Below, one piece after another: positions 21,910 through 63,821 of a stretch of DNA of 64,000 bases (its first letter is position 1; each line of letters begins with the position of its first letter). Origin of the DNA: Umbilicaria muhlenbergii. Taxonomy: Eukaryota; Ascomycota; Lecanoromycetes; Umbilicariales; Umbilicariaceae. The notes under the pieces are model-generated. The model ran no database searches. It was not told the origin of the DNA and saw only the letters and a program-made list of their open reading frames with translations. The DNA is taken from contig KK106985.1 of the NCBI GenBank assembly GCA_000611775.1, forward strand, positions 1,040,291 to 1,104,290, in the 5' to 3' direction. The translations under genes and the position numbers were made by a program.

Positions 21910-24464
21910 GAGCCTTAGACTCGGTGGCAGAAGGGCAGAGGTGCCGACAACAATGCGAATCGCTCAGTCGATGTATGAAAGCAATCTAAGCGCTGGTGGC
22001 TGATAGCGGGTCATGCCGGTCAAGCGTTTGGATTTAACATGGACGGGACGCGCAGTGCGGTTACCTATCGAGGCAGCCGGCAAGCGTGTTAGCCTCGAGC
22101 AGCGCCTGTGCAACCCGTTGCCTTACGATATGCAGCTGCAGGGAAGAGCACACCACCCATTCCATATTTTCTAAGGGTACGGAGTACTCCACAGAGCCAC
22201 TGCGACATTATGCATCAAAAGCTGGGGAATATACGGTCTGTGTTCTGACTCGAGGAAAAGAACCGCGCGGCTGGGCTATACTGGTGGCTCCTTCTCTCTG
22301 GGTGATACCGTGGTAGTGAGTGTGTAAGGTTGTTTAGGATAGTGGGTGATAGAGGCTGACTTATGATAGACTCAGATTGGTTCTGTGCAGCATAGGAGGC
22401 CAGGAGTGATTCTCTGCCACTGGAGGCGCAGTCTTGAACGTACATTACCAGAATGTCGCAGACGACGTTGTGAAAGGGCTTTTGATCCTCAGGATTTTGC
22501 CGTGCAAGCCTGTTCTAGCTTACGTACCGTCATTGAATGCTGGTAAGTGCTTATTCTTGTACTCAGACTTGGAGCCGAGTTGAGAAAATGAGCTAAGAGT
22601 GTGTTCAGCACACCAATCAAATCGAGAACGTGAGGAAAGTCCCTTTTGGAAATCCCCACTGATCATGTTTTCATACATGTCTTCGTACCCACGCTTATCT
22701 CCCAAATAACTCGCTAATTGAGAGATCAGGATCACGTTCTCCTATGGCGTGTAGAGTTTAGGGTTAGCCCTCGCAGGACGTCAATGCCGCACCCTATGTG
22801 TTAATCCTGTGATGTCCTACACAGCATGCTCCCGAGCATATAAAGCGAGAACTGATATTTTGAGACCTAGAATGATTCATTGATTCCGCGAAAAGTTTAT
22901 GATGTCCGCTATCTCAAATCAAGCACCTGAGTAGAAGCAAAGCTGTTCTGCCGACTCGCCTATTAAGTACGCTATGACAGACTCAATCCCCGCGAGATAT
23001 GCGCCGGAAAGCTAACAGTGAGCTTTTCAGGGGTTAAGACAACTCCCCCCTGACCAAGCACGTGGTCTAGTAATCACTGGAGGAAAGCCGTCCGGGAGAG
23101 CCCTAGACAGGACGAGGGAGCTTCACACTGGGCGTGGCTGCGCAGAAGTGACTACGAGCCCAGTGAATCACTTGTGTGGGTCGAAAGAGGTTCCGACCGA
23201 GTGGCAAGTATCTGCGCCGTCATTTAGTCGAGCATCAAAGCGGGACATTCCTGATTCAGTTTGACCCTCACCTGTTGCCTCGACTATGGATCGCATTAGA
23301 ACTGTCTGGTTGAGGCTCAACAACAAGCTCGCCCGACCCAAGAGTGATTTTTCCTGTGCGCATGGAGGTGGTGTATGAGCAGCCCCTCATCGTGTAACCT
23401 CGTACAACGCATCTGGGATCATGTTAGCTTATGCTTATTGTTGCCGTTTCCGAGAAAGCTCTGCCATAGGTTCCTGTTATTTTCTCTCCAGCGGCGCACC
23501 GCCAGTGCATTTTGAAATCAATCAGTGTATGTGCTAAAACATTCACGTTGTGCTTCCCCCATTTTGAGGGCCCGACCGTGTAGCGGTGAGATGGTAGCTT
23601 TCCTTGCGCTGTTCACAAATCAAGCCAGCTGCATTAATAGTCTGGCAGAAAAGTTTCAAATCCTCCAACCCCTGACTGCTTATCAACGGGTGGCATTGCG
23701 CAGGAAGCAGATGTTCAGGTTGTACAACCATTACATTCACCCGCGATAGTGGCTGCCATGGTCCATCTAGATCGCAGTTTTATCATTGATCGCACATTCG
23801 TCTCTTGCTCCTGCAGATTCCTCGAGGCCAAGCAGGTGCTTATGAGAGCCCAAGTTTTACAAAACGTTTGCTCATCGATTGCGGGCTTTTCGATAACGCA
23901 GTAGCCTAGCATGCCTAGGGAGAAGACGGTGACTCGGGAGTGTTTGCGCACGAGCGACCAATAGAAGCGCACCTAGAGTTTACCTCCCAATAGGCACGGC
24001 AGGGCGCCTTCATTGATACCGCTAAAAGTGACTGCCTGGGGCCGCGGATCCTAATCGAGGTCACTTTATGCAACCACACTTTTCCAAAGTGGGAACACAA
24101 GACTCCAAATCTAGACGCCTTTAGACAACGCTGCAGACTTAGAGTAAGGCAAGTTTCAGGGCTTTCTATCAGAGTTTAAGTGGTGTTTTCATAGTAGTAG
24201 ACTCTCGTCTTGTAAATCATTCCATTTGCCTCATGGTCTGCGTACTAATGTATTTTTGTAGCCGTAGCAGAATTGTGGGCTGGTAGAGAGGCCGAGCCAG
24301 CCATATCTGTACTGGGGGTACTAAACGCAAGGATGCGAGTCCAATGAGCATTTACGTCAGTGTAGCGATGAATGCCGCAGCGTCTCCGCTTTGCAGTATT
24401 CTGCCTAAGTTGAATTTCTACCTCTTCTTAGCCTCTCTGCTTTGGAAGTTTTCCCCTTACAATC
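21910..24464. other. 2.5-kb stretch without a recognisable gene
   Basis: AT-richer than the flanking core genes, with only short ORFs (under 90 codons). There is a TATA-like CATATAAAG at about 22847 with no identifiable gene after it, and a TTTAGGGTTAG string near 22749 that is too short to be telomeric. I see no terminal repeats or transposase remnants. It may be degraded repeat DNA or a non-coding transcript region upstream of the MFS gene. Confidence 0.5.
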
Positions 24465-26415
24465 ATGTCTACTACGATGGAAAGAAATCGCGAAAGCAAC
24501 GAGGTCATCTCAACCACCAAAGACGAGGCTGATTCCATTCAACCCTGTTCAACTGGTCCGGTTTCTCACCCTAAAGTTAGCCCTCTGGACTGTGAAATGG
24601 AGGAGTCAATCGCTAGATCTGAACCATATTCTACCTTCAGCAAATCTACGAAGCGATGGATTGTATTCATAGTCACCTTAGCCGGGTTCTTCTCACCACT
24701 AAGTGCCAACATCTATTTCCCGGCGTTGAATTCTATAGCGGAGGACCTTCATGTGTCTTTGGAGTTGATGAATCTCACCATCACAGTATATTTGATCTGC
24801 CAAGGCATTGTGCCCTCTATTCTTGGCGATCTGGCTGATATGCTGGGGCGGCGGCCGGTATACCTACTGGTATTCCTTATCTACTTGTCTGCAAATATTG
24901 GTCTGGCACTTCAAAATTCCTATCCAGCATTGCTTGTTCTTCGAATGCTTCAAAGTACTGGAAGTTCAGGTGAGCTCTCCACAGTTATCTAATAGTATTC
25001 AGCATGTTGCGGCGTAGTGACTCTTTAGGCACAATTGCTCTTGCCATCAGCGTTGTGGCAGATATTGCTCCTCCGCACGAGCGGGGAAAATATATCGGCG
25101 CTGCGCTTTGCGGGTAAGTCTACCCATTGTACTTGCTCTTGTACTCTAACTAAATATCAAAGGCCAAACATCGCCCCAAGCCTTGGCCCTGTCCTAGGAG
25201 GGGTCTTGACCCAGCGAGCAAGCTGGAGGTGGATATTCTGGTTTCTCGGCATTCTTTCCGGGCTATGCGTTTTGATGATAGCGATTTGCTTACCTGAGAC
25301 TGGTCGCAGGATCGTTGGAAACGGCAGCATTCCTGTTAGAGGTATTAACAGAAGTTTACTCTCCTGCATCAGTCGAAGGCCCGCCGATGCTGACAGCAGT
25401 GGCACCGATACTGCATTCACGAAGCCCGCGTTCCGATTTCCAAATCCAATCACCTGTCTTCAAATCGTTTTCCACAAAGATACGGCGCTTGTCTTGTTTG
25501 CGAACGCTGTATTTTATATGACGTACAGCTGTATCCAAGCCTCCCTTTCTCCGCTTCTAATGGAGTTGTACGGACTTGATGCATTGAAAGGAGGCTTGAC
25601 TTATCTGGCATATGGTATCGGTTGTGGCCTTGCCTCATACGCCACAGGTGATACCTTGATTCACCTATTCTTCATACTTCTCACCCATCTATAGGAAAAT
25701 TAATCGATCGTGACTACCGCAGAACAGCGACATCGGCAGGCTTCACAATAGACAGAGTCAGAGGAGATGACTTGACGGAATTTCCCATTGAAAGGGCAAG
25801 GCTAAAGAGCATATTTGCATTCATGGCAATTTCATTCACGTGTACGCTTGGGTACGGATGGGCTCTTCATGCAAAGACGGTATGATCCTAGTGTTAGGAG
25901 CTCACTATAGGATATTGTTGAGTAGTCATGCAGAATCTTGCAGTACCACTCATTTTACAAGTGTTGTGTGGGCTGACTGTGACCGGAACATTTAATGTGG
26001 GCTCTTCTTTATTTACCCTCTGATTGAACTGTTTCTTGTATTGTTCGTGTCGTTCACTTGACTTGTAGCCGCCCTTGATTATATTAATTGTTAGCTGTTC
26101 TTCTAGGTCTGCAATACTCTACTCATTGATCTCCACCCTGAGTGCCCCGCCACTGCCAGCGCATCTGTGAGCATTGTCCGCTGCAGCGTTGCCGCAGGCG
26201 GTGTCTCTATCTTGCAGGTTCTTCTCGACCATCTTGGGGTTGGATGGACCTTTACGCTCTTCGCTGGACTCTGCGCCTCAACAACACCGATGCTTTTGGC
26301 CGAACGAAGGTGGGGCATGCAGTGGAGAAAGACTAGGGATGGAAAAGCAAAGGAGAGGAAGAAGAAGAAGAAGACAAATAAAGAACAAGATAAGATTGAA
26401 AAGATGGATGAGTAG
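24465..26415 (+). CDS. MFS multidrug-type transporter (DHA1 family)
   Basis: Six exons: 24465-24969, 25029-25113, 25163-25647, 25695-25879, 25934-25996 and 26107-26415; 543 residues. After a hydrophilic N-terminus of about 65 residues come the expected membrane segments. These start with WIVFIVTLAGFFSPLSANIY and the motif-A loop GDLADMLGRRP between helices 2 and 3. Motif C (GPVLGGVLTQRASWRWIFW) is typical of 12-helix drug:proton antiporters. The tail is very Lys-rich. The sequence style is like the quinidine/dityrosine-type (Qdr/Dtr) DHA1 group, which exports drugs or small metabolites across the plasma membrane; the substrate is unknown. The stop lies 37 bp from the convergent NLR stop. Acceptor 2 is AAG, less usual but required by frame. 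Confidence 0.85.
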
Positions 26416-26452
26416 TATGCAACAAGACAGACTGGTGATTATCTCTGAGCTG

Positions 26453-29400
26453 TCATGAAATCCACTGATCTCTCAATCCATTTCGAACCACAGCGACCTC
26501 TCCATTTCTCGGACATAAGAACGTTCCCTCCTTGGTCACCAAAGATAGTTCCAAACATTCCATGTTCAGCCAGTCCCGTGGTGGAAAGAAGTGGCGCTTG
26601 GCAGTGCTGCCTGCTGTTGAGTCGATGGACGACCAGGTACATATCCAGAAATCTCTGTCTATGAAAGCCAGAACGTACCCTCTTTCTGACGCCTCAAAAT
26701 CACTTGCAACGTCCTGACTGGGCGGGACCCATGGTCTTTCTGGTGCACCAGTCATGACGAATCCCAATGGTATCTCCATCCTAGCCAGGATCTCTCGTGG
26801 TAGTAGTAAGGGAGTAATAACACTATTATCCTTCGATAATGCGGTCTTATCAAGGTCTGAAACCCTAATGACCATGAACTGCTTCTTGCGTCGACACTTT
26901 AAAGAGGCTTGAGAAGTCTCCAGTAGTACATGCGACCCATCCGGTGTTTTTAAGGCCTTGTCAACAAGATTTTCAAAACCAGACGGAGACATCGGATAAG
27001 CAACAGATGGTCTTCGGAACAATCGGTGGTCCTCAGATGCGACTTCAGCATCAATATCAGTTCTGTCGATTTCGAACCTATGAATCTCTGATAGATCACT
27101 CCAACGACATATTTGAATATTGGAGAAGCCGAATGAGATCACCAGTTCTTTGTTATAAGGGTGATTGACCCAATTACACGATGTGTTAAGCAACAAAGCG
27201 GTTGCTACGATCGATTTGCTGTCTAGAGACCAGATGTTGACGAACCTCTGAGACGAGACGAGAAGGAACGTCGATGTTGGGCTCAAAAGGATTTGCTGGA
27301 CGCCTTCTTCACTTTTTGCCCGGAGAATCTGCCTACTTGGGGCCGCAGAGGTAGATAGGTCCATGGAATGAACAACAATTGTCCCACTTAAGTCGGCCGT
27401 CGCAACTATTCTCTCATCGTCACCCCATACAATATGGTCCATAGTCATAAAACTCCGAGATATATGCACTACATCTTCCTCGCTATTTCTAGACACCATG
27501 AGAGTACCCTCGTCATTACCGGCACAGTAACTTGAGGTGTGCAAGCTCACGGCGAGGGCAGTTATTGGCTCCAACATCTCAGCCGAGGCCTCTGAAGCCA
27601 ATGATAATTGTCCTGAGGTTCCCATTGTACTCGACGTTTCGCTCCCCTTCTCGTCAGTCTCCGACAGGCGGATGAGAGCGTTGGGCTCCCAGATATTGCA
27701 AAAAGACTCTCTTAGATCATAGATACGTCTGCCGTCAGGGTCGATAGCAAGATCTGTAACAGGAGAAGTACAGGAAAGTTGGTATATGAGCGCAAAATGG
27801 TGGAAATTCCAGATTTTCAACATCCCGTCAATGCTGCTAGTGATGAAGATGTTGCCGTTAGAACTGCACTGAATTTCGGTTGCAATAGTCTTGATCTCTT
27901 GACTTTCATAGTCAAGAGGATGCCATTTGAAAATGCAGCCATCATTGTAAAGACCAAGGACGTGTCCTGTGAGTGGGTTCCACCCTAGGCGGCTCACGTC
28001 TGTCCATAGATCACCACGGCCCTTGGTTTTATCCCCTAAACGCTCACACCTTCCAATAAGGCCAGGCGGATCAACCCCCCAGATTGATAACGGGAAGCCT
28101 CGGTATGACACAGCGACTTGAGTGCCATCTACGTTGAAGGACACGCAACGAGGAGAGTTGTAATGTTTTCCATCAAAGGTATCGTCTTTTAATCCGGAGT
28201 CCAGAACTTCCCACAGTTTTGGAGATGTTGTCAAAGATATGCGCCTGACTACTCGGTCATCTGAGCAAGTCAATATTACCGTATCATTATCTGCGAATAC
28301 TGCAGATAGAGCTCTGGCGCCGACAGGGTTTGGAAGTGAGAATAGTAGCCGCGCTGAAGCGACGTTCCAGACCTTCGTTGTACGAAATCCGTAAGTAACC
28401 AACATGTCTCCGGCACTACTGAAGCGCATTATTAGAACACGCTCACCGTGAGGAAACCTTCGTGCTTCCTCGCACGTCAGAGAATGCCATAGGATGACGG
28501 TTCCGTCTGTTGTTAAGATTGCGAAGTAGCGGCCTACGCACATGATACTTAGGGCTTGACTATCTCTTCCAACAGAGAATCTGGCTAGGCTGTCATCCCA
28601 ACTCAAATTTGAGAAGCCACTAACTGAAATCCCTGTGGACGATTTTGCGAGGCCAAACTGCCGATAAATAATAGAATTTCGGGGACAAAATGATGGAATC
28701 AGATTGTGTATAGACCTCGGATGGGCAACCAAATGAACTCCAAATTTCCCAACGATCTTTACTAGATCAGTAGCCCAGAGTTCGAGAGTCTCCATTTCTT
28801 GTAAACAATGCGACAACGGACTTTGGTCAGTATTGAACTTTGCCCGCTTCTCAAGGAAAGAAGTGAGGCTTTTAGCGGCGTACACTAAAGTCCGAATCTG
28901 ACCAGCATGCGCCAATTCATAGATCCAAGTCAAGACAAACGGTCCTCGGAAAAACCTGGCTAGCATTAAGAGCGAGTCTTGATCCGAGAAGCCGGAACTC
29001 AAAGCTAGATGATAGGACCAGGAAGTGGACGCATAGACCAAGAACGGCTGAGAAGTAACTTGATTGATCCGAAACCTTGGCTTGGCATCTAAGAGGAATG
29101 ATAGACATTTCTTGAATAGAAACCCGTGAGCCTCCACAAGGGAAATGGAAAAGTGAAGATCTGGTGTCTTTGTAAGGTACTCGCGCGCAGTTTGATGCAC
29201 CATCACAATATTGGACTTTTTATCGATCACAACGAATTCCCCACAAACTTGATTGATTGTATGCTGGAGGTCCAGAACAGGAGGTTGTTCAGGTTGAAGC
29301 GCCTGCGCTAACTCTTGAAGAGTCAAAGCCCGCCGTGCGCAAGTCGCCCAGATCAATATAGCCCTTGCCAATGCTTGATCCCCAGGCCTTAGGGTTTTCG

Positions 29401-31963
29401 CAAGGGAGGCCTCCATACGATGATACAGCGGCTCCAAATCAGCGGGTAGTTCTTCCAGTGCATTTTCAATGGCAGCTTGAGTGTGGCACTGCAAGATTTC
29501 CTTCAAAACGAGGTGCACCCAAAGAAAATTGCCGTCGGCCATATTCAGGATCTTCTCGACAACATGCTCTTTGAAGCCAGGGCTTCCATGCATCGGCCTT
29601 ATGTATTCCATCTCTTTGTTAACATAAGCCTGAAGGTCTTGTTCCGCATCATCAGCGGAAATGGTCCCAACGCTGTGAGTTTCTGCAAGTCGTTCGAAGG
29701 ATATCGATAACGATTGAGATTTCCGACTCACAAACATAACTCGCAGAGGAACCGCAGAGGTTGTGACAGTTGACAGAAGGTTTATGATTGATTGAGGCGA
29801 GTCAGATTCGTCTAGCCCATCGACAAGCCAGTAAAGTGGTTTTGAAAGACTTGTCCTGAATAGCGCAGACACGAAAAGCCGTTGCCATAACAAACGTGCT
29901 TCGGCTTTCTCGAAGTCCAAACCATCCTCGGACATTTTGATGAGCCGCCGCCGATACTCTGGTACATAGCAGGCAATTTGATAGGCCAGTGACCTCAAGA
30001 ATGCGTTCGGGGAACGCTTTGTCTGATCTCCGTATCGAAAGAAGTAGAATTGACATGCACGATTTGTTTGCTTAAGATGCCTAACCACGAAGGACGACAA
30101 ATAGGATTTGCCAGTTCCTGGAAGGCCACTGAGCCAAAGAAAGCGTGGCTTAGGGGAATATAAGGATTCATCTAGCCAGAATTCGAATGATGTCTTTGAG
30201 AATATCCATTCACATGAGCCCGGCATCCAGTGCTCGCAGAAGAATTCACAGTCATCATCCGGAGCCTCGGAAACACCGAGAAGGTTTTCAAGCTTTTGGC
30301 TGCCTTCTGCGGAGCCGGAGTCTCGCAAGGGTTCTTCTGATGAATCAATACTATCAGTAATTTGACTTAACCCAAATAGAGACTTCAGAAATCAAACGGC
30401 GGCATCTTGACTTCCGTGTTATCTAGAAGACAGTTGCTTTAACGGAAAAGTCTCCGCCATAGAGATACAGATAACGCACAAGCTCGTTGAGTTATCTTCG
30501 CCGCAGGACGCTCCACAAAGAATCCTCGATAGAGTAAAGGCAAAGGGGGGACGTAGCTCATGAATTTGTAACTGACCTCGCCTGCGAAATCGTGTCAAGA
30601 GAGATTTCAAAACATTTCGAACGCTAATGTAGTTGGAGTCTTGCTGACTACTGTACTTGCATACATCATGATGGTCGGCGTCTAAAGGTTTGGAAATCTC
30701 CCCTGGGTAGCCCAGTATTGACGAGTCTTTCTCGAGTACCATCTAACGGATGTTCAGCTTATCGAGGTGTAAAGGTGCTCAAGATTCATCTTGTAATTAC
30801 CATTTTCTTTGGTCCAACTGCAGTTTGAACAGTTTCGAAAAAAGACACTATCTGAAGATTAGGTGCGATATTTCGAAATTGTTCATTGATGTCTTGCAGA
30901 GTGGGCGAATTTCTTTTCAACTCAGCAATATAATGCTTTGGAGAATGGTTGAAAAGCGAAACAGTGAGGATTCGATTAAGAATGTCTGCCAAGTTAGTGC
31001 CGCGATGAGGAGTTGATAGAAACAAGATAGCACATGTTGATTGAATAATGTCCTTGTAGTTGACGTCGTTTTGCCCCAATATATACGCCTAGATTTGTTA
31101 ATGACCGAGAGAACATGAATAGTCTTCTGGACTTACTTTCTTGACTACAAGACCGCCCATAGAATGAGCGACGAAAATTATTGGAACCTGCAAATAATTA
31201 CTATCATTGAATAGATTTCTATGAGTTATCATGTAAAAAGTAGAGTTAGGAAAGACTTTGCCTTAGCCTCACGCTCAACTACTGAGACTTGGCAATCATA
31301 TAAGCGTCTTAAAGCATTTCCCTACACTCTAGAACTCAAACAAAATTGTACATTAGAAAGTCACTCACCTTTCCAACATTAAGCTCATTTGTTCTTTCAT
31401 CAGTCCCAAATTTCATCCCGAATAGAAGTTCCTTTGCAAAGTCTGAGATATCGAGTATATTATCCCTTGAAGAAGACAAGAAGTGTGCATTATAGCCGAA
31501 CGTTAAGACCCTCGCTGTACATATTCCTGGCTCCAGTGGTAGCCACTCTTGCGGCCAGAATAGCTCTGGGTTCCGGTTTTTCGACCACGTTTGACGACTC
31601 GTGCCACCAAGCCCATGTACAAAGATCAAATCCATCACTGGTGTGGAGGCGGGCTCGAAGAGGACATTGAGTCCAAGAGGATCAGCATGGCGCTCTTGTG
31701 ACCGGTCTCTTAGACGTTGTTCAGCGTCGCTAGTCTGGCTGGTCGCATGTAAGGCGTCATAGGAGGATAAGTTGCTTTTTGTTGAAGTAGGAGAAGCGGG
31801 TCTCTCGAAGGGTATCGTGGCCGCAGAGCGTTTCCGTCCATTTCCGGAAGAAGTTGCTTCAGTTGAGGAAGATGGCACATTGCTCTTTTTACGGCGAAAT
31901 CTGCGGAGCTAGAACCAAGAATAAGCACGGGCACAATAGACTCTGGCGGAGCTAGAATACCAT
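26453..31963 (-). CDS. NLR-type STAND protein: lipase-like domain, NACHT, WD40 repeats
   Basis: Proposed exons: 31963-31961, 31908-31369, 31187-31137, 31088-30801, 30742-30577 and 30336-26453; 1643 residues. Residues about 90-330 form a SesB-like alpha/beta-hydrolase domain. It has DLIFVHGLGG (oxyanion region), the nucleophile elbow VAHSMGGLV (Ser190), the STPHRG block and a late ADHHDVCKYSS with the likely catalytic His318. NACHT follows: Walker A GLPGTGKS (420-427) and Walker B WLVDGLDES (519-527), then a winged-helix-like stretch and VHQTAREYL. From about 920 there are at least eight diverged WD40-like units (for example TDGTVILWHS, SIDGMLKIWNF, RFVNIWSLD). In fungi such proteins mediate non-self recognition and regulated cell death; the ligand is unknown. 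The 3-base first coding exon and the 240-bp fifth intron are the least certain parts. Confidence 0.85.
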
Positions 31964-32833
31964 TCTGAGACGATATAACACCTAGAGAACACGCATGACT
32001 ATGCGACTTGTCAAGCGGTCTGGAATACTTTATTACCCAAGGGATAGTTTGAAGGTTGCGACATGAGCATGAGTTGACAATAATTTTGGAGTAAAGCTCT
32101 CGAATGGAAACAAGAACCGCCAGGCTAGACTGACCGCGTATGGTAGTGCGAACGGCTTGTCTCGGGGCCGTCAGACGGCGGCGTCCACACCAAAACCAAC
32201 TCGGCTACTCGGCGCCACCTGGCCAGGGTGAGCCAGCCCGTTTATATATTAAATTACTAGCGAGAAACTATGAGTAAAAGAGCCTCGTTAACTCGCGTCC
32301 GAGTAAATGCATCAAAGCGTTGAAATAGTTTTTGAGGCAACTGTTACAAATGACCAATCAAGACTGCATACATTTCACTCAATTGCCTTCTTTTGGTGTC
32401 CTTCATTACTATATCAACTTACAACTCGCTCGATCTACACCGGGCCGGGCCACATATCTTCGGGGAGACGGATCACGACCCTTTGGGAGATGACCCGAGC
32501 AATATTATTGGAAAGACAGAAAGGGATCACATTATCTATCAGTATCCTTGCAGATAACCGGCTATCCGCAGGTCCCATCCAAACATGTCTTCCGTACACT
32601 TCAAAGCTGTGCGCAAAGGTATCTAGCAGTCCACTATGCCTTCCCTGCAAGATAAATCACCAAGCCGCGGAGATGTAACACTTCTTTCATGACCATCAGG
32701 GATGTTGCATACAGGAATTATCATTGGAAACAATGCAGCAAAAGTATCCGCAATTCTATTATGAATATGGGCTACCCCGTCCTTATCGTTTTCATATCGA
32801 CAACACTCAGCGTAGAACAGTGGCACTAGAGAA
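31964..32833. other. Divergent promoter region between NLR and kinase genes
   Basis: The NLR reads left and the fructosamine-kinase-like gene reads right from here. Short ORFs (32307-32678 +, 32435-32650 -, 32623-32910 -) have no recognisable content. No terminal repeats seen. Confidence 0.55.
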
Positions 32834-34135
32834 ATGTCTGAAACAATAAGCAGCGTTAGAGAAGTCATTCCAGATATTGGTGGAAATTTCTCTCTTGATG
32901 AGAGCGTCATAGCAGGTCAGATCAACCTTACCTCTCTTCACTTATCTTCGATGTAACACAGCTTACTATGTCCCGCAGAATTTCCAAAAGGGACTAAAGT
33001 CCTTGAAGCTAGTAGTTATGGAACATCCGCTTGGACCCGGACGGCCCGTATCTCTGTTGAGCTTCCAGATGGCACGCCAAAAAGCTACTTCCTTAAGGTC
33101 TGCTATTCATTCTGGCGAATCACCTGATCATTGCTAAGTACTAATGCCTACAGTGTGCTACTGAAGGAGGTAGAACAATGATGGAAGGCGAATTCAATTC
33201 CATGCAGGAGATATACAAGTTGATCCCTACTTTTGTTCCAAAACCTCACGCTTGGGGTAAATTCAAACTCTCTACTCCTGCGACGCATTTCTTTCTTTGC
33301 GATTTTCTTGAAATGGCCAACAATATGCCGGATCCTGTCCAGTTTTGCTCTCGCGTTGCAGAACTTCATCGCACCAGCGTTTCTCCAACTGGGAAGTTTG
33401 GATTCCATGTCAAGAATTGCCATGGGAAAATTCCTCAAGCTACAGATTGGGACAGCAGCTGGGCCTCCTATTTCACCAAACTCATCACTGGATTCTTTCA
33501 GATCGAGATCAGCATCAACGGTCCTTGGCCTGAATACGAGACTGCTTTTCAGCAAGTAGTCACTCACGTTATCCCTCAATTGCTTGAACCTCTTCAGTCA
33601 AATGGGCGGACCCTCAAACCGTGTTTAGTACACGGTGACTTGTGGGAGGAAAACACCGCAACAGATCTTGAGACTGGCGAACCTGTAGTCTTCGACTCCT
33701 CGGCAATGTACGCACACAACGAGTATGAACTTGGAATGTGGCGACGCGAGATCATTAGGATCGGGAGACCTTACTTCAAGCAGTACCTGCGCAATTTTCC
33801 TCCGAGTGAGCCTGTTGAGCAATGGGATGATCGTAACAGATTGTATTCCCTGAAATTCAACCTTGCTCACATGATAGGTTGGCCAGGTTCACCTTTGGTG
33901 AGAGAGCAGTATGTCTCCCCATCCGAACTACAACCAAAATAACTACGTATTAAATCTAAATTACCTCAGGATATACAACGACATGGGCTATCTTATCAAC
34001 AAGTATCCGCCCATATTCCTTGTTGAGCAGTCTACGAAACCCGTTGATGCCACTGCAGCTACTAGCGTTGAAATGTCCGTCCCAGAGAGAGCACTTGAAG
34101 CGCTTTCAATGAAGGAATCAACCGCTTTAGAGTGA
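32834..34135 (+). CDS. Fructosamine/ketosamine-3-kinase family protein
   Basis: Four exons: 32834-32915, 32979-33097, 33154-33908 and 33970-34135; 373 residues. It starts MSETISSVREVIPDIGGNFS. After splicing come FPKGTKVLEASSYGTSAWTR and SYFLKCATEGG (the ATP-site Lys region), then GEFNSMQEIYKLIP with the expected Glu. Catalytic loop: LVHGDLWEEN (His227, Asp229, Asn234). VVFDSSAMYAHNEYELGMW replaces the DFG part and is characteristic of this family. Characterised members phosphorylate sugar groups glycated onto protein amines so that they fall off, a protein repair step. Fungal members near NLR genes have no assigned substrate, and context here offers none. The last exon begins IYNDMGYLINKYPP, the usual C-terminal helix. 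Confidence 0.85.
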
Positions 34136-52125: not shown

Positions 52126-54734
52126 ATGGCTTCTGTAAGTACCCTTCCCGAAAAGACACTTGAACGTTAATGCCCCTCTGTGGCGCACATCACAATGGCG
52201 GCTTAGATGGTCTGAGCTGACCTTGTACCAGCCGCGTCCTCACAGCTTCAACAACGAAGGCTATCTCCCGAACGGCGCAACCGGTGTTCCTAGTAGTGCC
52301 CCGGCAGGAGGCTTTGGCTCCAACAACTTCTCCAATAACAGCCGTGTCGTACAGAATGGAGGAGTCCGGGTCCTGTGTGTTGCAGATGTCCGCGGTAAGC
52401 TAGGAGCTCCGCCGCTAAAGCTGAGCTGATTTCTGATGTGATTGCTTTTCTACATAGGTAACCTCAGATCCCTGAATGACCTCGCGAGGCAAGCTCGCGC
52501 AGACTACATTATCCATACTGGGGACTTCGGCTTCTACGACGATAGCTCTCTAGACCGTATTGCGGACAAGTACGTACATGGTTTGATGACCGAGGAATCC
52601 TGACACCAAATGGGGCCTAATTATTGGTTTTAGGACCCTCAAACACGTTGCTCAATACTCTCCTCTACTGTCCGAACATACGAAGCGCTCGATCCAGTCG
52701 ATGCCACCACAGCAAGCACCACTCAAACAACGATTTCCTCCCGACCAGCTGCCGCTTTCAGAGCTACCGATGTTTCTCAACAAGCAATACACCCTAGATG
52801 TACCTGTATACACGGTCTGGGGTGCTTGCGAGGATGTGCGCGTGCTGGAGAAATTTCGATCAGGGGAATATAAAGTGGAAAAGCTGAATATCATCGATGA
52901 GGCTAACTCCAGACTATTGGACGTCGGTGGTATCAAGCTCCGTTTGTTCGGCTTGGGTGGCGCTGTTGTTATGCACAAGCTATTCGATAACGGAGAAGGT
53001 AGAACAACAATTGCGGGAGGGCAAGGGACAATGTGGACCACTTTACTTCAGATGGGGGAGCTTGTAGACACGGCGAATCGCGTCTATGATCCGACAGAAA
53101 CGCGCGTCTTTGTCACTCACGCCTCTCCCGCTCGAGAAGGTCTACTGAATCAGCTGTCGGTCACCCTGAAGGCCGATTTCTCCATATCTGCAGGGCTCCA
53201 CTTCCGCTATGGCAGCTCGTACAATGAGTTCAGTGTGAACCCCACATTGGATCACTACCGAGGCAAGCTGGCAGCATCTAAGGCATCTTTTAACGATGTC
53301 TGGGAGACTGTCAAGAGCGAAGTTGAGCCCGCAGTGGCCCAGAATGAGGCCCAGCAAACCCTACTTACCAACGCGTTGGACATCGTAAACAAGATGCCGA
53401 CAGTCGCCAATGGGGGCAATCCGTTTGGTGGTGCAGTTCCTGGGCAAGGCGCTGGTGGGCAGGTCGACGAGAGTGCCTTCAAGAACATGTGGAACTTCAA
53501 TCTTGCCGATGCGGCGTTTGGTTACTTGGTTCTCGAGATCGAAGCCGGGAGAATTGGGACGGAGATGAGGGCTCAAGGCTTCAACTTTGCTCATCGCGGT
53601 ACTGGCGGTAAGCACGGCGTGACACAGTCAGTGCAAGCACCAGCCCAGGGTGGCCCAACGAATGCAGTGATGCAGGGTGGGAATAATATCAATACTGCAA
53701 CAGCACCCACTGGGCCCAACCAAAACCGTTTGCCAGCTGCTCCGTCATCTCAGTCGAGTCAACAATTCAATCAGAACCCACCACCAAATCAGCAGCCTCG
53801 GAGCCAGCCTCCGCCGGCACAGCGTCAACAGTCCATACCCCCTCAACAGCAGCCGCAACAGCAGCCAGCGCAGCAACCAAACCAGGGTAAAGCTCCTCAA
53901 GGTCCATCGCGTACAGGTCCTTCCCCAGCTCCTGCTGTGCCAAGCCAAGTAAAGCCTGCTACACCACAGCCGACAAACGCGAACGTGAATATTCCTACCC
54001 CGCCCCCAAATGACAAGCCGGCGACAGCAGCCCCACAGAGCTCTGATGCCCGAAATGGTACCGCTTCCACGAATGACAAGGCACAAGCACCTCCTACACA
54101 GAAGCCTGCTTCACCTGCGGTAGAAAAGAAACCAAGCACAGGATTGTTTATTCACAACCTGGACACCGAGCAGAGCGTACGTGACATTTTCTCAGAGGAA
54201 GATAAGTCAAAGATCCTCCGAGTCGAAAAGTATGGCAAATACAACTTTGTAGTTCACTTTAGCACCCACGAGGAGGCGAAAGCGGCGCTCGAGCGACAAC
54301 CGGCAGATCATAAGAAGCACGTTCCCGGCCCACCTGCTCCAGGCCAGGTAAAGAAGCCAAATGTCAAGTTCTACGATGACCGCGCTGGAGGACCGCGGAA
54401 TTTTCAGCGCGACGGTCAGAGTGGACAGGGCGCTGGTGCTTGGCAAGGTAGCAACCGTGGTGGGGCAAACGCTGGCCCGCGAGGCGGCTACCAGAGCGGG
54501 GCCAGCGACAGCGAAGGTGCTCGAGGAGGACGGGGTGGCTTTACGGGTCGCGGTCGAGGCCCTAGGGGTAACGATCGTGGTTCAAGAGGCGGCCGAGGCG
54601 GATCCAGAGGCAGCTTCAACAACAAGACTACATCTGGTGGCGAAGAAGCGTCATCGGCCTCTGGGCCTCCTGCTCCGGCAGCCACTACCGCTGCAGCACC
54701 AGCTGCACCGGCTCCCTCCGGCGGCGAATCTTGA
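52126..54734 (+). CDS. DUF2433 protein with RRM-like segment and C-terminal RGG box
   Basis: Four exons: 52126-52134, 52232-52394, 52458-52569 and 52634-54734; 794 residues. Exon 1 encodes only Met-Ala-Ser. The N-terminal 350 residues (VRVLCVADVRGNLRSLNDLA, IIHTGDFGFYDD, LPMFLNKQYTLDVPVYTVWG, VFVTHASPAREGLL) follow the order of a calcineurin-like phosphoesterase. The usual DxH is DVR, so metal binding is doubtful. This is the fungal DUF2433 family as I remember it. A Gln/Pro-rich linker follows (about 430-590), then an RRM-like unit (GLFIHNLDTEQSV, KYGKYNFVVHFSTHEEAKAA, about 598-645). The tail is Arg/Gly-rich with many RGG/RG repeats (about 670-765). The combination points to an RNA-binding role; no enzymatic activity is assumed. 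Confidence 0.86.
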
Positions 54735-55556: not shown

Positions 55557-58500
55557 ATGTGGGCAATGCGACAACTCCAGTTGCAGGCGCTGTTATTCCT
55601 CACACTCATAGGCGTTTTGGGTGCGGCAGCCTCAGTAGAAGATGAGGTCTGGACTATGAAACATGAGAAGGGCAGATGCGCCATACGAGACCAGTGCGGG
55701 AAGAAGTCCTTCTTTGGTGGAGAGCTACCTTGTCCGGACAATGGATTGGCGCGAGAACCGAGCGATGATATCAGAAAGAAGCTGGTGGGTATTTGTGGCG
55801 ACAAGTGGAGCGAAGGACCGGTTTGCTGCGAGGAGAATCAAGTAGGATATCCCGCAACGATGCACCTGCAAAAGAAGGCCGGGGCTGACCAATATTCTAG
55901 GTCGATGCACTGAGCAGCAATCTGAAACGCGCAGAATCCATCATCTCCTCTTGTCCAGCATGCAAAGAGAACTTCTTCAACCTCTTCTGTACCTTCACCT
56001 GCTCGCCCGATCAATCCCTCTTTGTCAATGTCACCGCGACCCAGGGAACTTCGTCAAAGAAATTGCTTGTGACCGAACTTGATAACCTATGGTCAGACGG
56101 TTATGGAAGCGGCTTCTACGACAGCTGTAAGGACGTCAAGTTTGGAGCTACTGGTGGCAAGGCGATGGACTTCATTGGTGGCGGGGCAAAAAACTATACC
56201 CAGTTCCTCAAATTCTTGGGAGACACGAAGCCATTTGGAAGTCCTTTCCAAATCAACTTTCCCAGACCCGATGATGTGGAAGGAGATGGAATGAAGGCCA
56301 TGGATCCGGTGCCGAAGGCCTGCAATGATACGAGTGAGCTATACCGGTGCGCATGCGTTGATTGTACCTCAGCGTGCACCGAGCTACCAGAGGTGACGGA
56401 GACAAAGTATTGCCACGTTGGAGCACTGCCATGTCTCTCTTTCGCCGTGATTATTATCTACTCGGTGTTCCTACTACTACTGGTGACTGCGGTGTCTGGG
56501 CATGTCGCATGCCAGAAACACAATCAGCGGCAGAGTGAGAGATTGCAGCTCCTGCAAGATGCTGCACCAAGTGACGACGAAGACGAGGGCGATGTGGTGC
56601 AGAACGCTGGAATGCTGGACCGGCCTCAAAGGCATTACAGAGTGAACACCATTTGTGACACTGCATTCAGCAGACTCGGGAGTATATGCGCTCGCTTCCC
56701 TGCTACCACCATCACTATTGATGTTCTCATTGTCGCATTGCTAAGCTTGGGGTGGATCAACTTCTCCATCGAAAAGGATCCGGTTCGACTGTGGGTTAGT
56801 CCTTCATCCGCAGCAGCGGAGGAGAAGGCATTCTTCGACTCGAACTTTGGACCGTTCTACCGTGCAGAACAGGCTTTCCTTATCAATGATACGCATCCAT
56901 CAGGGCCAGGACCCGTTCTCAGCTATGATACTCTAGGTTGGTGGTTCGATGTGGAGAACCGCGTACAGCGCATCATATCTATGGAGAAGAGGGTCACTCT
57001 CAACGACGTGTGTTTTAAGCCTACAGGCACGGCATGTGTGGTCCAATCTCTGACTGGCTATTTTGGTGGAACATTTGCTGGTGTCGATCCAAATACATGG
57101 CAGACAGACTTGAAGCACTGTACCGACCAACCTGGCGCTCAGGAGTGTTTGCCTGCCTTTCAGCAGCCTTTACAAAAAGACATCATTCTCGGAGGCTTCG
57201 AGAAGACTGGTAATGTTTTAGATGCCGAAGCTTTGATCACCACTTGGGTAGTCAACAATCACGCAGAAGGTACAGAAGAAGAAGCACGTGCGATGGACTG
57301 GGAGCAGAACCTTAAGAATCTACTACAATCTGTCCAGGAAGAGGCTCAGGAAAGAGGCCTCAGGCTATCTTTCTCAACAGAAATCAGCTTGGAGCAAGAA
57401 CTAAGCAAATCGACAAATACTGACGCTAAGATAGTGGTGATCAGCTACATTATCATGTTCATATACGCTTCGCTGGCACTTGGATCCGCAAGCTTGACGG
57501 TGAGGTCTTTGCTCAACAACCCAGCAAATGCCCTAGTGCAATCAAAATTCACTCTCGGTGTCATTGGGATTGTTATTGTACTGATGTCAGTCTCGGCGTC
57601 TGTTGGCCTATTCTCGGCTGCGGGAATCAAGGTCACCTTGATCATTGCCGAGGTCATCCCATTCTTAGTGCTGGCAGTTGGCGTCGACAACATCTTTCTT
57701 ATTGTTCATGAATTCGAACGAGTCAACCTCAGCCATCCAGACGCAGAGATCGATACCCGAGTCGCGAAAGCATTGGGGAGGATGGGACCTAGTATTCTTT
57801 TGTCTGCCTCTGCCGAGACGATCGCCTTCGCCCTGGGTGCCGCTGTGGGCATGCCCGCGGTCAGGAACTTCGCGGTCTATGCGGCTGGTGCGGTGTTCAT
57901 CAACGCAGTATTACAGGTTACAATGTTTGTCTCGGTACTTGCATTGAACCAGCGACGAGTTGAAAGCAGTCGGGCAGATTGCTTCCCCTTCGTCAAGGTC
58001 AAGCGGGCGGATACATACCACTCAACCGGTGGCCATGTGTATGGATCGGACGAGGAAGGTGCAATGCAACGTTTCATCCGCAGGACATACGCTCCTAGCT
58101 TACTGAACCGCAAAGTCAAGGTTGTCGTGGTTGTTGCCTTTCTAGGACTTTTCACTGCTGGACTTGCTTTGATCCCCGAGGTAGCTCTGGGCTTGGATCA
58201 AAGGATAGCTATTCCGACAGGCTCATACCTCATCCCCTATTTCAACGACCTTGCGGCCTACTTCAACACAGGCCCTCCCGTGTACTTTGTGACACGTGAG
58301 CTCAATGTCACGCATAGGAAGCATCAACGGGACCTTTGTGCTCGTTTCTCGACATGTAACTCCTTCTCGGTTGCCAATGTCTTGGAACAAGAATCGAAGA
58401 GACCCAACGTGTCCTACATCTCCGGTTCAGCTGCCAGCTGGATCGATGACTACTTCACCTGGCTGAACCCCACGAACGAAGAATGCTGCAAGGAAGGCGG

Positions 58501-59529
58501 CAAAGTGTGTTTCGAAGATAGAACCCCGCCGTGGAATGTCACTCTCTACGGTATGCCAGAGAGTACCGAGTTCATCCACTACCTCGAAAAATGGATCGAG
58601 TCCCCCACGAACGAAGACTGCCCCCTCGGCGGCAAAGCCCCCTACAGCAACGCCCTCGTCATCGATTCCAACCGCTCCACCATCCCCGCCAGCCATTTCC
58701 GAACGAGCCACGTCCCGCTCCGAACCCAAGACGACTTCATCTCATCCTACGCCTCCGCCCGCCGCATTGCAAAAAGCATATCCGAAGCGCAAGGCATCTC
58801 CATCTTCCCGTACTCGAAATTCTACATCTTTTTCGACCAATACACCACCATCACCCGTCTAACCGGCATCCTCCTCGGTTCGGCCCTCGCCCTCATCTTC
58901 CTCATCTCCTCCGTCCTGCTCGGCTCCGTCGCCACTGCCGCCGTCGTCACCCTCACCGTCATCATGATCGTCGTCGACGTCATCGGAACCATGGCTCTCT
59001 TCCACGTCTCCCTCAACGCCGTCTCCCTCGTCAACTTGATCATCTGCGTGGGTATCGGCGTCGAGTTCTGCGCGCATATCGCGCGGGCGTTCATGTTCCC
59101 TAGTCGTAGCGTTATGGAGAAGGCGAAGACTAAGTTCAGAGGCAGGGACGCAAGGGTGTGGACGGCGGTGGTGAATGTGGGGGGGAGCGTGTTCAGTGGG
59201 ATTACGATCACGAAGTTGTTGGGCGTGTTCGTGTTGGCGTTTACGAGGAGTAAGATCTTTGAGATTTACTATTTTCGGATCTGGTTGGCGCTGGTGGTGT
59301 TTGCGGCGACGCATGCGTTGGTGTTTTTGCCCGTGGCATTGAGTTTGGTTGGGGGAGAGGGTAAGTTTTGACTGCTAGTGTGTTTCGAGTTTGTGGAAGG
59401 ACGGTTTACTGACGATTTGCAGGCTATGTGGATCCGGAGTCGGATGGCGGGTTGGAGGAGGATTTGGCTGCGAGGAGGTATAGGGCGTTGCTGCCGGATG
59501 ATGATTATGATTCCGAAGACGACTACTGA
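55557..59529 (+). CDS. NCR1: NPC1/NCR1 sterol transporter of the vacuolar membrane
   Basis: Three exons: 55557-55841, 55901-59360 and 59423-59529; 1283 residues, the family length. A signal peptide (MWAMRQLQLQALLFLTLIGV, then LGAAAS) leads into the Cys-rich N-terminal sterol-binding domain (GRCAIRDQCGKK, PVCCEENQ, CPACKENFFNLFCTFTCSPD). A first membrane span (LSFAVIIIYSVFLLLLVTAV) and the middle luminal domain follow. The sterol-sensing domain (about 590-760) contains SYIIMFIYASLALGSA, VIPFLVLAVGVDNIFLIVHE and LGAAVGMPAVRNFAVYAAGA. The C-terminal RND/Patched half ends with AVSLVNLIICVGIGVEFCAH. The last exon adds a short cytosolic tail ending DDDYDSEDDY. It moves sterol from NPC2 in the lumen into the vacuole membrane. 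Without the small last exon the frame ends early at 59371. Confidence 0.96.
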
Positions 59530-60891
59530 GGGCTTGGGCCTAGGTCGAGGGAGATATCCTGCCGCCTAAGGGGGTGTTTGAGGGCTTGTGGTAAGGGCCA
59601 GGTTGGAATAGATGGCATAGCATATGCATGGATGCGGTGTTGTGGGGCTAAACAAGACATGTAACTAGGAGTTGGTTCTCTCAAACGGCGTATATCGTCG
59701 CTGCTTTTGGTGCTACTGTGAAACAGATAAACCTACCTTTTGCCCACCCGTCTTCGTTGTGGGACCCAATGCCAACATTCTCGTACCCTGCCAACAGATG
59801 AGTAGCCTTCGATTCAACGCCAACCTGAGCACCAACCTTAGCGGTACTCCGTCGTCGGGTTGTACAAAGAAAGCCAGCTGCCAACCCTTTCTTTGCCCGT
59901 TGCCACCTGAATCTACTGTTCCTTCTGCTGACAAAAGCACTCTAACATATCGCCGACATATCGCATTTACTATAGCTATGCTAAGAACTCTCCGGGCCTT
60001 CTGAATGATTTTCCTAGTCAACCAGTGCGTACTCGCAATTCCCATTCACCTCCACCTCCACCTCCACCTAACCCTCTCCCCATCTACCCTCTCCCCTTCT
60101 ACCCCCTCTCCCTCTGCCCTCTCTCCCTCTACCCACCTCACCACACCTCATCCCATCCCCCTCCTCTCTTCCTCTCCTTCCCCCTCCCCTCCACCCCCCG
60201 GCTCCATCTCCCCCCCAAAACCCCTCCCATCCAGCTCGCCAACTCCATCCGTCACATTCTCACCCCCCGCCGCCAAGAGCGCGGAAGTCCGCCAGTAGCG
60301 TCGCAGTTCGAAACGAAGAAGCCATTCATTCGGGCGGGATGAAAGTCCGACAGGTGATTGTGACGTAGTTAGGGGATGTAGCCGAGACGAAGGGATGAAG
60401 TTGTCAGTTGGTTGGTTTGGAAAGAAAAGGGTATGGTGTAGGGGTGGGGTTGGGTTGGGTTGGGTAAAGGGGAGGAGGCGGAAGAGGAAGCGGGAGAGGG
60501 AGGAGTGGGTTTGGGGGGAGGTGGGAGTATGGATCTGGGATGAGGGGGATGAAGAGGGGGTGGGAGGGGGAGGGTATGAGCAGTTGGCTAACGATGAGGC
60601 TTTCTCGCGGGGTTGTGGCATCTCCAGATCGAACTCTGAAGTGGTGATTCGACACGGCGCAAGATGGTTCACCTCGCAAAAAACCATGATGGATGGGAAG
60701 CATGGACATGAAAGAAATTAATGAGTAGCACGCTTTGTGGAACAATGGGACTGTGCTTCAAGCCTTCTATTCTATGCTAGCATGTACATGTTTCCGACAG
60801 ACAAGACATTCTGTGTATGATTCGGACTCGGAGATGAAAACCATGTGGCCGCCCCAGCGCAAACTTGGCCGATCTCTTCGTTTCGGCAATG
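59530..60891. other. Intergenic, strongly asymmetric pyrimidine/purine tracts
   Basis: A C/T-rich block at about 60040-60250 (many CCTCT and CCCTC units) and a G/A-rich block at about 60420-60580 on the same strand, so the two could pair imperfectly as an inverted structure. Long ORFs here (60148-60687 -, 60404-60745 -) are Pro/Ser-rich by composition and not convincing. Confidence 0.55.
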
Positions 60892-62943
60892 TTACATGAT
60901 CGGGCAATTCTCATCTATCTCGACGTTGGTGCTATGGCCGTGACCGCCCGTTTTATTATCGTGGGTTGTGGTGTCCTTGCCGTGGCTGTTTCCACTCTCC
61001 TCAATATCCTCCATTTCGATATCGTTCTCAGGAATGTTTACCTGCTCTTCCGTAGAGACTTGTTTCTCGTTCTGCACCCCGTCATCCGTCTTGTCTTCTT
61101 CCAGAGAGTCTTCTTCCACATTTTGCATCCCACCGTCCGTCTTGTCTTTTTCCAGCTCAGAGAGATTTTCATCCTCAGATGAATCCGCCATTTCCACCTC
61201 GGACCCGGCAGTAGAAGATGCGCCACTGCTATCGGAATCGATCAGGGAATCTGATAGGTCCAGCTTCACATTGGCGCTGACACTTGGCTTTGCCTCTGCT
61301 CCTTGTGAGAGTGACTTCACGACTTCTTTACCTATTCGTTCTCTGAGCACCTGTAAACGTTTGCTTACAGCATAGAACGTACGTTCAGGGAAGAGTTGTT
61401 TTTGAATGAGGTCGACAGTCCAGCCAAGAAAACGCGCATCTACGAGCGCCCGCTCATCCGCAGCAGACCAAGAGCCCTTTGCAGGGCTTGATGCCGCTTG
61501 TACCTGCTTCCCTTCTTCGGAAGCGCTTCTGGAGTTTTCCCTGTACCTAGACGTTACCGTGGTCCGGTATTCCGCTTCCAAGAGTCCCAGTAAGTGAAGA
61601 CGCTCAGACACGGCGATTTGTGTCCGGTGAGGGAAATGGTTTTCTTGGATATTTTTCACAGGCTTACCTTGGGCATGAGCCTGTAATAGGACCTGCTCTT
61701 CAGAAGTGCTCCAACGGGAACCTGTGGCCTTACAAGAAATCGGCGTAGCAGTCGCTGCTACCCCTTCAGTTGAATCTGACACAGCCATAGCTCCAGCAAG
61801 GGATCTTTGCGAACCTGAGCCTACGCCAAAGACATCCTGTGCTGTAGAAGTGACCTTTGCGGTTGACATGGACGGGAGTTCTGATGCAGTTGTCGTGACT
61901 CCTATTCCTAGCGCTGTTTCTGTTTGGGCAGAGGCTACTGTTTTGGCATAGTACCCATCGATTCGTTTAGGACATTTCCCTTCAGAAGCCAATAAAGTGC
62001 ATTTTTGGTCCCGGGGGGGTTTAGATTCGTGAATGGAACTCAGAGCAGCCATTTTGGGAGTTTCAAGTCCATCAGTCGACCAATCGGCTTGGGATCGATC
62101 TTTTGTTTTAGCATAGAGGTCCCGGTCCCTGAGAATCCGAAGGCGTGTTCTAAGACTCCTCCGACTGCGTTGTGGGAATAGTTGCTCAATCTCTTCTATC
62201 TCGAGAGCTTGGTTCCTGGCATGTTTTAGAAGCTCGTCTGCGGTGTTGCTCCAAGGATCACCAGATCTTCCCACCACCGCCCCTGGTGCATTTGTTGATA
62301 CAGGAAGTGCGCGAGTTTTGGCCTTGAGAAAGGAAAGCCGTGCGCGCACAGCCTTTAGTGTGAGTTGGGGAAAGAACTGACTCTGGATGATTTCGAGACC
62401 AAGGCCTCGCTTATTCGCGCTCATGAGGGCTTCGTCATCAGCATCGTTCCAAGGTACCCTCGCCACCTTGAATAAATACCGTCGTATGCGCAATGAGAAA
62501 TCTCGGGCCTTGAGAAAGCGTATCCGCTGGCGAATAGCCGGAAGTGTACGTAGTGGGAAAAAGTATTTATGAATACATACCCGTTCAATACCTCGCGTAT
62601 AAGCCTCTGCTAGAGTCCTGTCATCAGCATCACTCCAGCGTGCCCCTGTAACACGAGAAATTGCACTCGATACCATGGGGAAGGCTTTGCATAATGTGTA
62701 AACGCTAGGCATAAGTACGGATCCACTGGTAGTATCATCGCCGTCATCCGCTGGGTCTAGATGCTGGACACGAATCTGGCCTGTTGCAGTGTCCAATGCA
62801 AAAGAGTGCTCAGGGAACTTGTCTTTGACCAGTCTCAAGGTCCTGACAGCCTCTTCAGGGGCCCACTTCTGCACAGACGCCGATTCGAGGTCGATGTCGT
62901 AATTCGACTGGTCTATCAATACAGACTGACGACGCTGATCCAT
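60892..62943 (-). CDS. Uncharacterised nuclear protein with five Myb/SANT-like repeats
   Basis: Single exon, 683 residues, starting MDQRRQSVLIDQSNYDIDLE. Five units of about 45 residues share the pattern W-S/N-x-x-D/E-D/E-x-x-L ... G ... I ... FP-x-R/L-T ... V/I-x-x-R-L-x-x-L. They lie at about 103-147 (RWSDADDRTLAEA), 165-208 (PWNDADDEALMSA), 231-274 (PWSNTADELLKHA), 411-456 (RWSTSEEQVLLQA) and 492-535 (SWSAADERALVDA). This is a Myb/SANT-like helix-turn-helix signature. The second and third conserved aromatics are replaced by Phe-Pro and Leu. The C-terminal 130 residues are very acidic and contain a doubled LEKDKTDGGMQ/LEEDKTDDGVQ unit. By analogy it may bind DNA or chromatin in the nucleus. 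I know no named family with five such repeats. Confidence 0.75.
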   Translation of the reverse strand: MDQRRQSVLIDQSNYDIDLESASVQKWAPEEAVRTLRLVKDKFPEHSFALDTATGQIRVQHLDPADDGDDTTSGSVLMPSVYTLCKAFPMVSSAISRVTGARWSDADDRTLAEAYTRGIERVCIHKYFFPLRTLPAIRQRIRFLKARDFSLRIRRYLFKVARVPWNDADDEALMSANKRGLGLEIIQSQFFPQLTLKAVRARLSFLKAKTRALPVSTNAPGAVVGRSGDPWSNTADELLKHARNQALEIEEIEQLFPQRSRRSLRTRLRILRDRDLYAKTKDRSQADWSTDGLETPKMAALSSIHESKPPRDQKCTLLASEGKCPKRIDGYYAKTVASAQTETALGIGVTTTASELPSMSTAKVTSTAQDVFGVGSGSQRSLAGAMAVSDSTEGVAATATPISCKATGSRWSTSEEQVLLQAHAQGKPVKNIQENHFPHRTQIAVSERLHLLGLLEAEYRTTVTSRYRENSRSASEEGKQVQAASSPAKGSWSAADERALVDARFLGWTVDLIQKQLFPERTFYAVSKRLQVLRERIGKEVVKSLSQGAEAKPSVSANVKLDLSDSLIDSDSSGASSTAGSEVEMADSSEDENLSELEKDKTDGGMQNVEEDSLEEDKTDDGVQNEKQVSTEEQVNIPENDIEMEDIEESGNSHGKDTTTHDNKTGGHGHSTNVEIDENCPIM

Positions 62944-63821
62944 AATGTTAACAGAGGTCTGATAGCAGACAAAAGGGAGATCAAGTAACCTTTCTTTTCC
63001 TAGATCTGGGAAGCGGATCAGACATTTCCGAACTGCACACTTTCACGCTGGGGTGAGGTGATATTGAATTCCTACGGGTCATCGGTGTCGAGAACTTTGG
63101 CCCATTAGGACAAGTGGTATCGGACATTGCGGCCTTTGTCACCAAGTGAAACACACAGGGATTTTCTCCAAGTATATAACTGATAATAAATTGCACCCAG
63201 TTCACTGGAGCTGCCAGGAGAATCGGCGCCCTTACCCGGGAAGTAGTTGGAAGTTTCTAATCTCTTCGGGCGAGGCCGAGCAGATGGCTTGAAGATAAGT
63301 TGTTTTGAATAATCGTCCGCCTGAGCAAAGTCAGCTAATGAAATAAAAAAATCATCGCAGCAAGCTCGACCGTATTCGAGAGGCTGCGGTAATCTCAAGA
63401 CTGGACCCGAAAAGCAAAGCTTTGCCCACCAGTATTGATAGAGATTTGCCGTCTGGAAGGAAGCAAAGTTGTGATAGAACAGCCTAACGCATCTCAATTC
63501 AGTCCAGTCCAATCCATGTGGTTCGAACATACGGAATACGTTAGAAGCAGCCTCGCCGTGCCAGTTGAGCCGTGTACTTGTCGACATCAAACCATCTGTG
63601 ATGGCTCGACATAAGCCCCACTGCAACGTGCAGAAGAATCAGGTCGATTATCTCTCAATCCAGTCCAGTGCAATCCATAGGTTTCGAACCGACGGAATGG
63701 GATAGACGCAACCAAGCCGAGCTAGCTGAGCCGTGTCAATCGTCGACATCAGAACATAGATGCCCGAGATGGTCGTGCTGTCCCAATAGAACTTCCTCGT
63801 CAAGCCCCGAATCCCACCTTT
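62944..63821. other. Intergenic with diverged tandem duplication
   Basis: Holds the promoter of the five-repeat gene. Two diverged copies of a segment of about 120 bp (63491-63610 and 63652-63770, period about 161) share AGTCCAGT, AATCCAT, TTCGAAC, GACATCA and other words. A 173-codon minus-strand frame (63105-63626) begins inside copy 1 and has no recognisable motif. It could be a decayed gene fragment. Confidence 0.45.

Follow-up and report, generated by a model that had tools for sequence, protein, structure and literature searches.

The question raised by this locus of the ascomycete Umbilicaria muhlenbergii is what kind of protein is encoded by a long minus-strand frame with five repeated, Myb-like units and an acidic tail. 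The frame lies at positions 60892-62943 of the window, that is, of the whole 64,000-nucleotide stretch of contig KK106985.1 that was analysed (positions 1,040,291 to 1,104,290, forward strand). The units belong to the Myb/SANT-like superfamily, as three-helix helix-turn-helix domains that are individually weak, and the array protein, which is uncharacterised, is a divergent form of a familiar protein type and not a wholly new one. The frame is intact: it runs for 683 codons from its ATG without a stop (716 codons between the flanking stops) and by reading alone it is a single exon. In 200 mononucleotide shuffles of the 4 kilobases (kb) around the gene, the longest stop-free frame reached 251 codons.

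Five related units of ~47 residues were found in the protein, with W103, W165, W231, W411 and W492 as their first tryptophans (Trp). On the minus strand, unit 1 (residues 101-147) maps to 62503-62643, unit 2 (residues 163-209, 47% identical to unit 1) to 62317-62457, unit 3 (residues 229-275) to 62119-62259, unit 4 (residues 409-455) to 61579-61719 and unit 5 (residues 490-536) to 61336-61476. All five were delimited by alignment and profile scores; unit 4 also gave a sub-threshold match to the Pfam family PF00249 at residues 410-442. We then made use of a paralogue found elsewhere in the genome and described below, which carries four units. A profile built from these four units alone found exactly the five window units, with 23.2, 26.0, 33.6, 31.3 and 39.3 bits, and the control, 500 core shuffles of the window protein, yielded some domain row in 259 cases, the top one at 2.9 bits. 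Likewise, each window unit scored by its four fellow units obtained 32.4-55.7 bits, when 1000 shuffles per unit reached at most 8.5. No sixth unit was found in the window protein by the profile of all units. An earlier reading of the letters only (hereafter the sequence-only reading) had proposed five Myb/SANT-like units, and the paralogue-only profile, the leave-out scoring against shuffles and the unit alignment all confirmed that number.

Comparison with solved structures placed the units among the Mybs. With a profile of the five window units only, the first 8 of 14 rows were Mybs, led by Trichomonas MYB21 (E value 7.6e-5) and followed by c-Myb repeat 3 (6.6e-4), and the non-Myb rows were weak (k-cTRP5, 0.26; MTA1, 0.51 and 0.68; a BEN domain, 0.89; an amidohydrolase, 1.2 and 1.3). 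When all nine units of the two genes were used, c-Myb was matched at 1.5e-7 and Mybs occupied 11 of 12 rows. A single column-permuted control profile returned three rows, none of them a Myb, with a best E value of 0.89. AlphaFold models of units 1, 2, 3 and 5 of the window protein agreed with this fold: unit 5, modelled alone, showed helices at 13-24, 29-35 and 42-63, with a predicted local distance difference test score (pLDDT) of at least 90 at 39 of 64 residues and above 90 in the core, and residues 97-285, which span units 1-3, formed nine helices, that is, three per unit. The suggestion that the units are helix-turn-helix domains was thus borne out by the Myb matches, the clean permuted control and the three helices of the four modelled units. 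A Foldseek search against the PDB gave no match with an E value below 1.6. The MADF domain was not among the two Pfam families listed at E values up to 10, HMMER filters discarding most weak matches, and NCBIfam gave each array protein a single chance row, far under the cut-off. The units share three helices, the first Trp, an acidic D/E pair and an 'LP/FP-x-R' turn with c-Myb repeat 3 (1h88) and Trichomonas MYB21 (3osf).

The units nevertheless depart from classical c-Myb and R2R3 proteins, which have three regular Trp per repeat and adjacent repeats ~52 residues apart. Using the profile alignments to known Mybs to place the core positions, we found the first Trp in 9/9 units, the second in 0/9 and the third in 1/9. 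Across the nine units, the residues aligned with the second Trp of known Mybs are R, L, I, V, V, I, Y, I, Y, and those aligned with the third are I, L, L, L, L, I, W, L, L. By comparison, the second Trp was present in all four outside Mybs of the genome that were compared. The sequence-only reading had noted altered aromatics and had put Phe-Pro in their place; the loss of the second Trp throughout and of the third in 8/9 units upholds the first part. The second part did not hold, since 'FP' aligns with 'LP' in c-Myb repeat 3 and with 'FP' in MYB21, at the turn ahead of helix 3, which makes it an ordinary turn and no substitute for a core Trp. Together with this loss, the whole window protein scored 17.6 bits against PF00249 (Myb_DNA-binding), under the curated cut-off of 24.4, and its third-position guanine-plus-cytosine (G+C) content, 0.478, was below the 0.53-0.62 of three other window frames. 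A possibility was that the gene is a decaying paralogue with little function, whose divergent units do not bind DNA any more. We regard this as improbable: the 683-codon frame has stayed open, third-position G+C is about the same in the paralogue (0.488), and the scaffold columns are retained in all five units. These columns (W3, A14, P30, R40 and L44) are invariant in the nine units of both proteins.

Spacing and charge bear on how the protein might work. The W-to-W distances in the window protein are 62, 66, 180 and 81 residues, as compared with 52 in c-Myb (matched positions 8, 60 and 112), which suggests that the units behave more like beads than like the rigid R2R3 pair. In columns 32-47, which cover the turn and the third helix, the net charge is +6, +5, +6, +1 and +4 for units 1-5; the third helix of unit 4 is therefore nearly neutral. 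The isoelectric point (pI) of the units lies between 8.4 and 10.8. Runs of at least three basic residues were searched for and none was found. Downstream of the array, residues 551-683 (60895-61293, minus strand) form a tail rich in serine, aspartate and glutamate, with net charges of -10, -16 and -3 for the blocks starting at residues 551, 601 and 651. It contains a tandem duplication of 17 residues (597-613 and 614-630; 2 x 51 nucleotides at 61046-61147, minus strand; 76% identical), so that the acidic tail with internal duplication described in the sequence-only reading stands as well.

The basic third helices, taken with the acidic, partly duplicated tail, point to a regulator that binds DNA and uses the tail as an acidic effector. 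We infer that the protein is probably a nuclear regulator of this kind, in which spaced Myb beads, whose third helices are mostly basic, contact DNA and the acidic tail possibly activates. Five three-helix modules would be strung on linkers like beads, each of them inserting its mostly basic third helix into the major groove. Single modules would bind weakly and the array would hold on through avidity, either at one extended composite site or at clustered sites, and the activation-type tail would draw in transcription or chromatin machinery. All four steps of this scheme, namely entry into the nucleus, contact with DNA, avidity and activation, are presumed. The paralogue repeats the layout, its Myb array likewise preceding an acidic end, and we counted this as support for a regulator.

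Myb-like folds do not all bind DNA. In the SANT subclass of chromatin proteins, the third helix is unsuited to DNA contact and histone tails are bound. The units might accordingly be SANT-type readers that bind histone tails or partner proteins, as in subunits of chromatin complexes, with the acidic tail contacting histones, a role that its charge would fit. The SANT domains of MTA1, MTA3 and DMAP1 were indeed among the fold matches, MTA1 being weak in the sequence profile (E values given above), and the nearly neutral third helix of unit 4 would also agree with such a role. However, the turn and third helix are strongly basic (+4 to +6) in four of the five window units, the pI exceeds 8 in all five, and the sequence matches were headed by DNA-binding Mybs. 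Because the third helices are basic, we consider a SANT-type reader the less likely option, with a rather low probability, and retain the DNA-binding regulator.

Helix-3 columns 34, 35, 38, 39 and 42 vary across the nine units, with 2.06-2.95 bits each (mean 2.58). Sixteen other non-scaffold columns, picked by hand, vary almost equally (mean 2.33 bits), and base-reading positions are thus not demonstrated as singled out for change. A more ambitious proposal is that the two genes represent a family of fungal proteins with spaced Myb arrays lying below standard cut-offs, with a variable number of repeats (four in one gene and five in the other) and diversified recognition helices on a fixed scaffold, which would read long DNA in a modular way, somewhat like zinc-finger arrays, and feed an acidic effector tail. 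This we hold to be rather doubtful. If the modules truly read different bases, the pair of four- and five-unit genes would provide a natural test case for the gain and loss of modules in Myb arrays; otherwise, the window gene would be an ordinary divergent transcription-factor candidate.

The paralogue, overlooked in the sequence-only reading, came from a search of the genome (34,788,950 bases on 7 contigs, with the window on contig C5) with the window protein. The search was made frame by frame and only the best candidates were scored, so further members may be missed. It returned a second gene on the plus strand, ~117 kb away (L014:2545-4236, that is, G000:C5:1220044-1221735; 564 codons stop to stop), in three pieces with E values of 8.3e-8, 2.5e-4 and 0.0017, and one extra weak piece at C3:1144629 (E value 0.046). 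The reverse search from the paralogue recovered, itself aside, the window gene only. The two proteins resemble each other in unit type, open frame, long linkers (W-to-W 87-95 residues in the paralogue) and acidic C-terminal end, with 29-35% identity in the aligned pieces. The paralogue units carry a net charge of +3 to +6 in columns 32-47, and one of them has a pI of 6.35. Unlike the window protein, the paralogue has four units, not five, and passes the Pfam Myb cut-offs (PF00249, 36.7 bits; PF13921, 26.3 bits).

Copy number also bears on the idea that the gene is a domesticated or still mobile DNA-binding protein which once bound the ends of an element. The DNA-binding arms of the Tc3, SETMAR and Mos1 transposases were among the fold matches, in line with such an origin. 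Yet the six-frame protein search gave one copy and one diverged paralogue, the flanks carry no inverted repeats save purine and pyrimidine tracts (transposases were not searched for), and 7 of the 8 scanned frames on one side contain ordinary cellular domains. A PF13837 search gave no match, and none was obtained in the control genomes either. We hold an origin of this type to be very unlikely.

Beyond the two array genes, the best units among 48 loci belong to two single-repeat Mybs, one at C3:1144674 with 31.1 bits and one at C1:9415875 with 27.3 bits, as compared with 63-75 bits for the nine profile units. These single-repeat Mybs share the 'FPSKT' turn with the array units, but they have one Myb stretch per frame, retain the second Trp and read NACRKRHER in helix 3. 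The C3:1144674 Myb itself matched MYB21 (E value 0.0049) and c-Myb (0.018), albeit weakly. In the unit tree, window units 1 and 2 are sisters (0.926; 0.940 when the tree was repeated), and other groupings reached at most 0.89. One reading of the sequences is that the fifth unit may have been derived by duplication of unit 1 or unit 2. The four outside Mybs were placed among the nine units, beside paralogue unit 2 (0.878; 0.893), and for this reason the nine units are not demonstrated as a separate clade. Mean identity between units is 35% within the window protein, 34% within the paralogue and 31% across the two. Viral and prokaryotic contigs gave 7 and 46 pattern matches, respectively, with no confirmed relative among them, as expected of a fungal gene.

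The sequence-only reading had also raised a telomere-type or Rap1-type array, and a Reb1-type array would belong with these: the protein would sit on repeated DNA such as telomeres or ribosomal DNA. A Rap1_C row was obtained for the window protein, at 13.7 bits (cut-off, 24.2), and it fell on Myb unit 1. The genuine Rap1_C gene of this genome lies elsewhere on the same contig (L049, C5:1505278-1505517) and scored 91.4 bits. Telomeric Mybs carry a telobox of the VDxKDKxR type within helix 3, and the window protein has no such telobox string. Both suggestions were therefore abandoned, and we see hardly any likelihood in an array of this group. SNAPC4, the subunit of SNAPc with a four-repeat (4R) Myb, was absent from the profile rows up to an E value of 10, which excludes nothing.

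How unusual is the array among described Mybs? In published surveys, Magnaporthe oryzae Mybs have one or two repeats (PMC8660761), Aspergillus nidulans has 14 single-repeat and seven two-repeat proteins (PMC11199622), and Fusarium graminearum Mybs mostly have one or two domains, atypical multi-domain Mybs being mentioned for Phytophthora infestans (PMC3983115). In Ganoderma, 4R-MYBs make up 2 of 75 (PMC7407476), and a brown-algal survey describes 4R to 6R Mybs, proteins with distantly spaced repeats having been dropped from it (PMC8854648). The Ganoderma and brown-algal proteins, as described, thus resemble the window protein in having more than three repeats. Trp residues are reported to be unevenly conserved in fungal Mybs (PMC8660761, PMC7407476). 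Mybs with more than three repeats have therefore been described before, as have fungal Mybs with four; an ascomycete protein with five spaced units was not found among the matches listed in the open-licence PubMed Central literature. As the window protein scores below the Pfam Myb threshold, the number of repeats in fungal Mybs may be underestimated.

A Pfam scan of eight window frames assigned cellular domains to the seven mentioned above, NPC1_N, FtsJ, a COQ5-type methyltransferase and RRM_fung among them. A frame for an NPC1-type sterol transporter (55901-59371, with NPC1_N and a sterol-sensing domain) is the closest frame of at least 200 residues on that side of the five-unit gene. Between them, downstream of the five-unit gene, a tract rich in pyrimidines and its purine-rich complement (60072-60230 and 60492-60580) form imperfect inverted repeats. 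On the other side, ~0.55-0.8 kb upstream of the gene start, we noticed an 84-nucleotide direct repeat, 80% identical (63492-63575 and 63653-63736). A role for it as a possible binding site was considered and is unsupported, the genome search having given no further copy, and a transfer RNA gene was looked for at this repeat and none was found. Farther away, a single frame at 52590-54731 combines DUF2433 with a fungal RNA-binding domain, and the G+C content across 24001-34000 is 0.44-0.48, below that of the remainder of the window.
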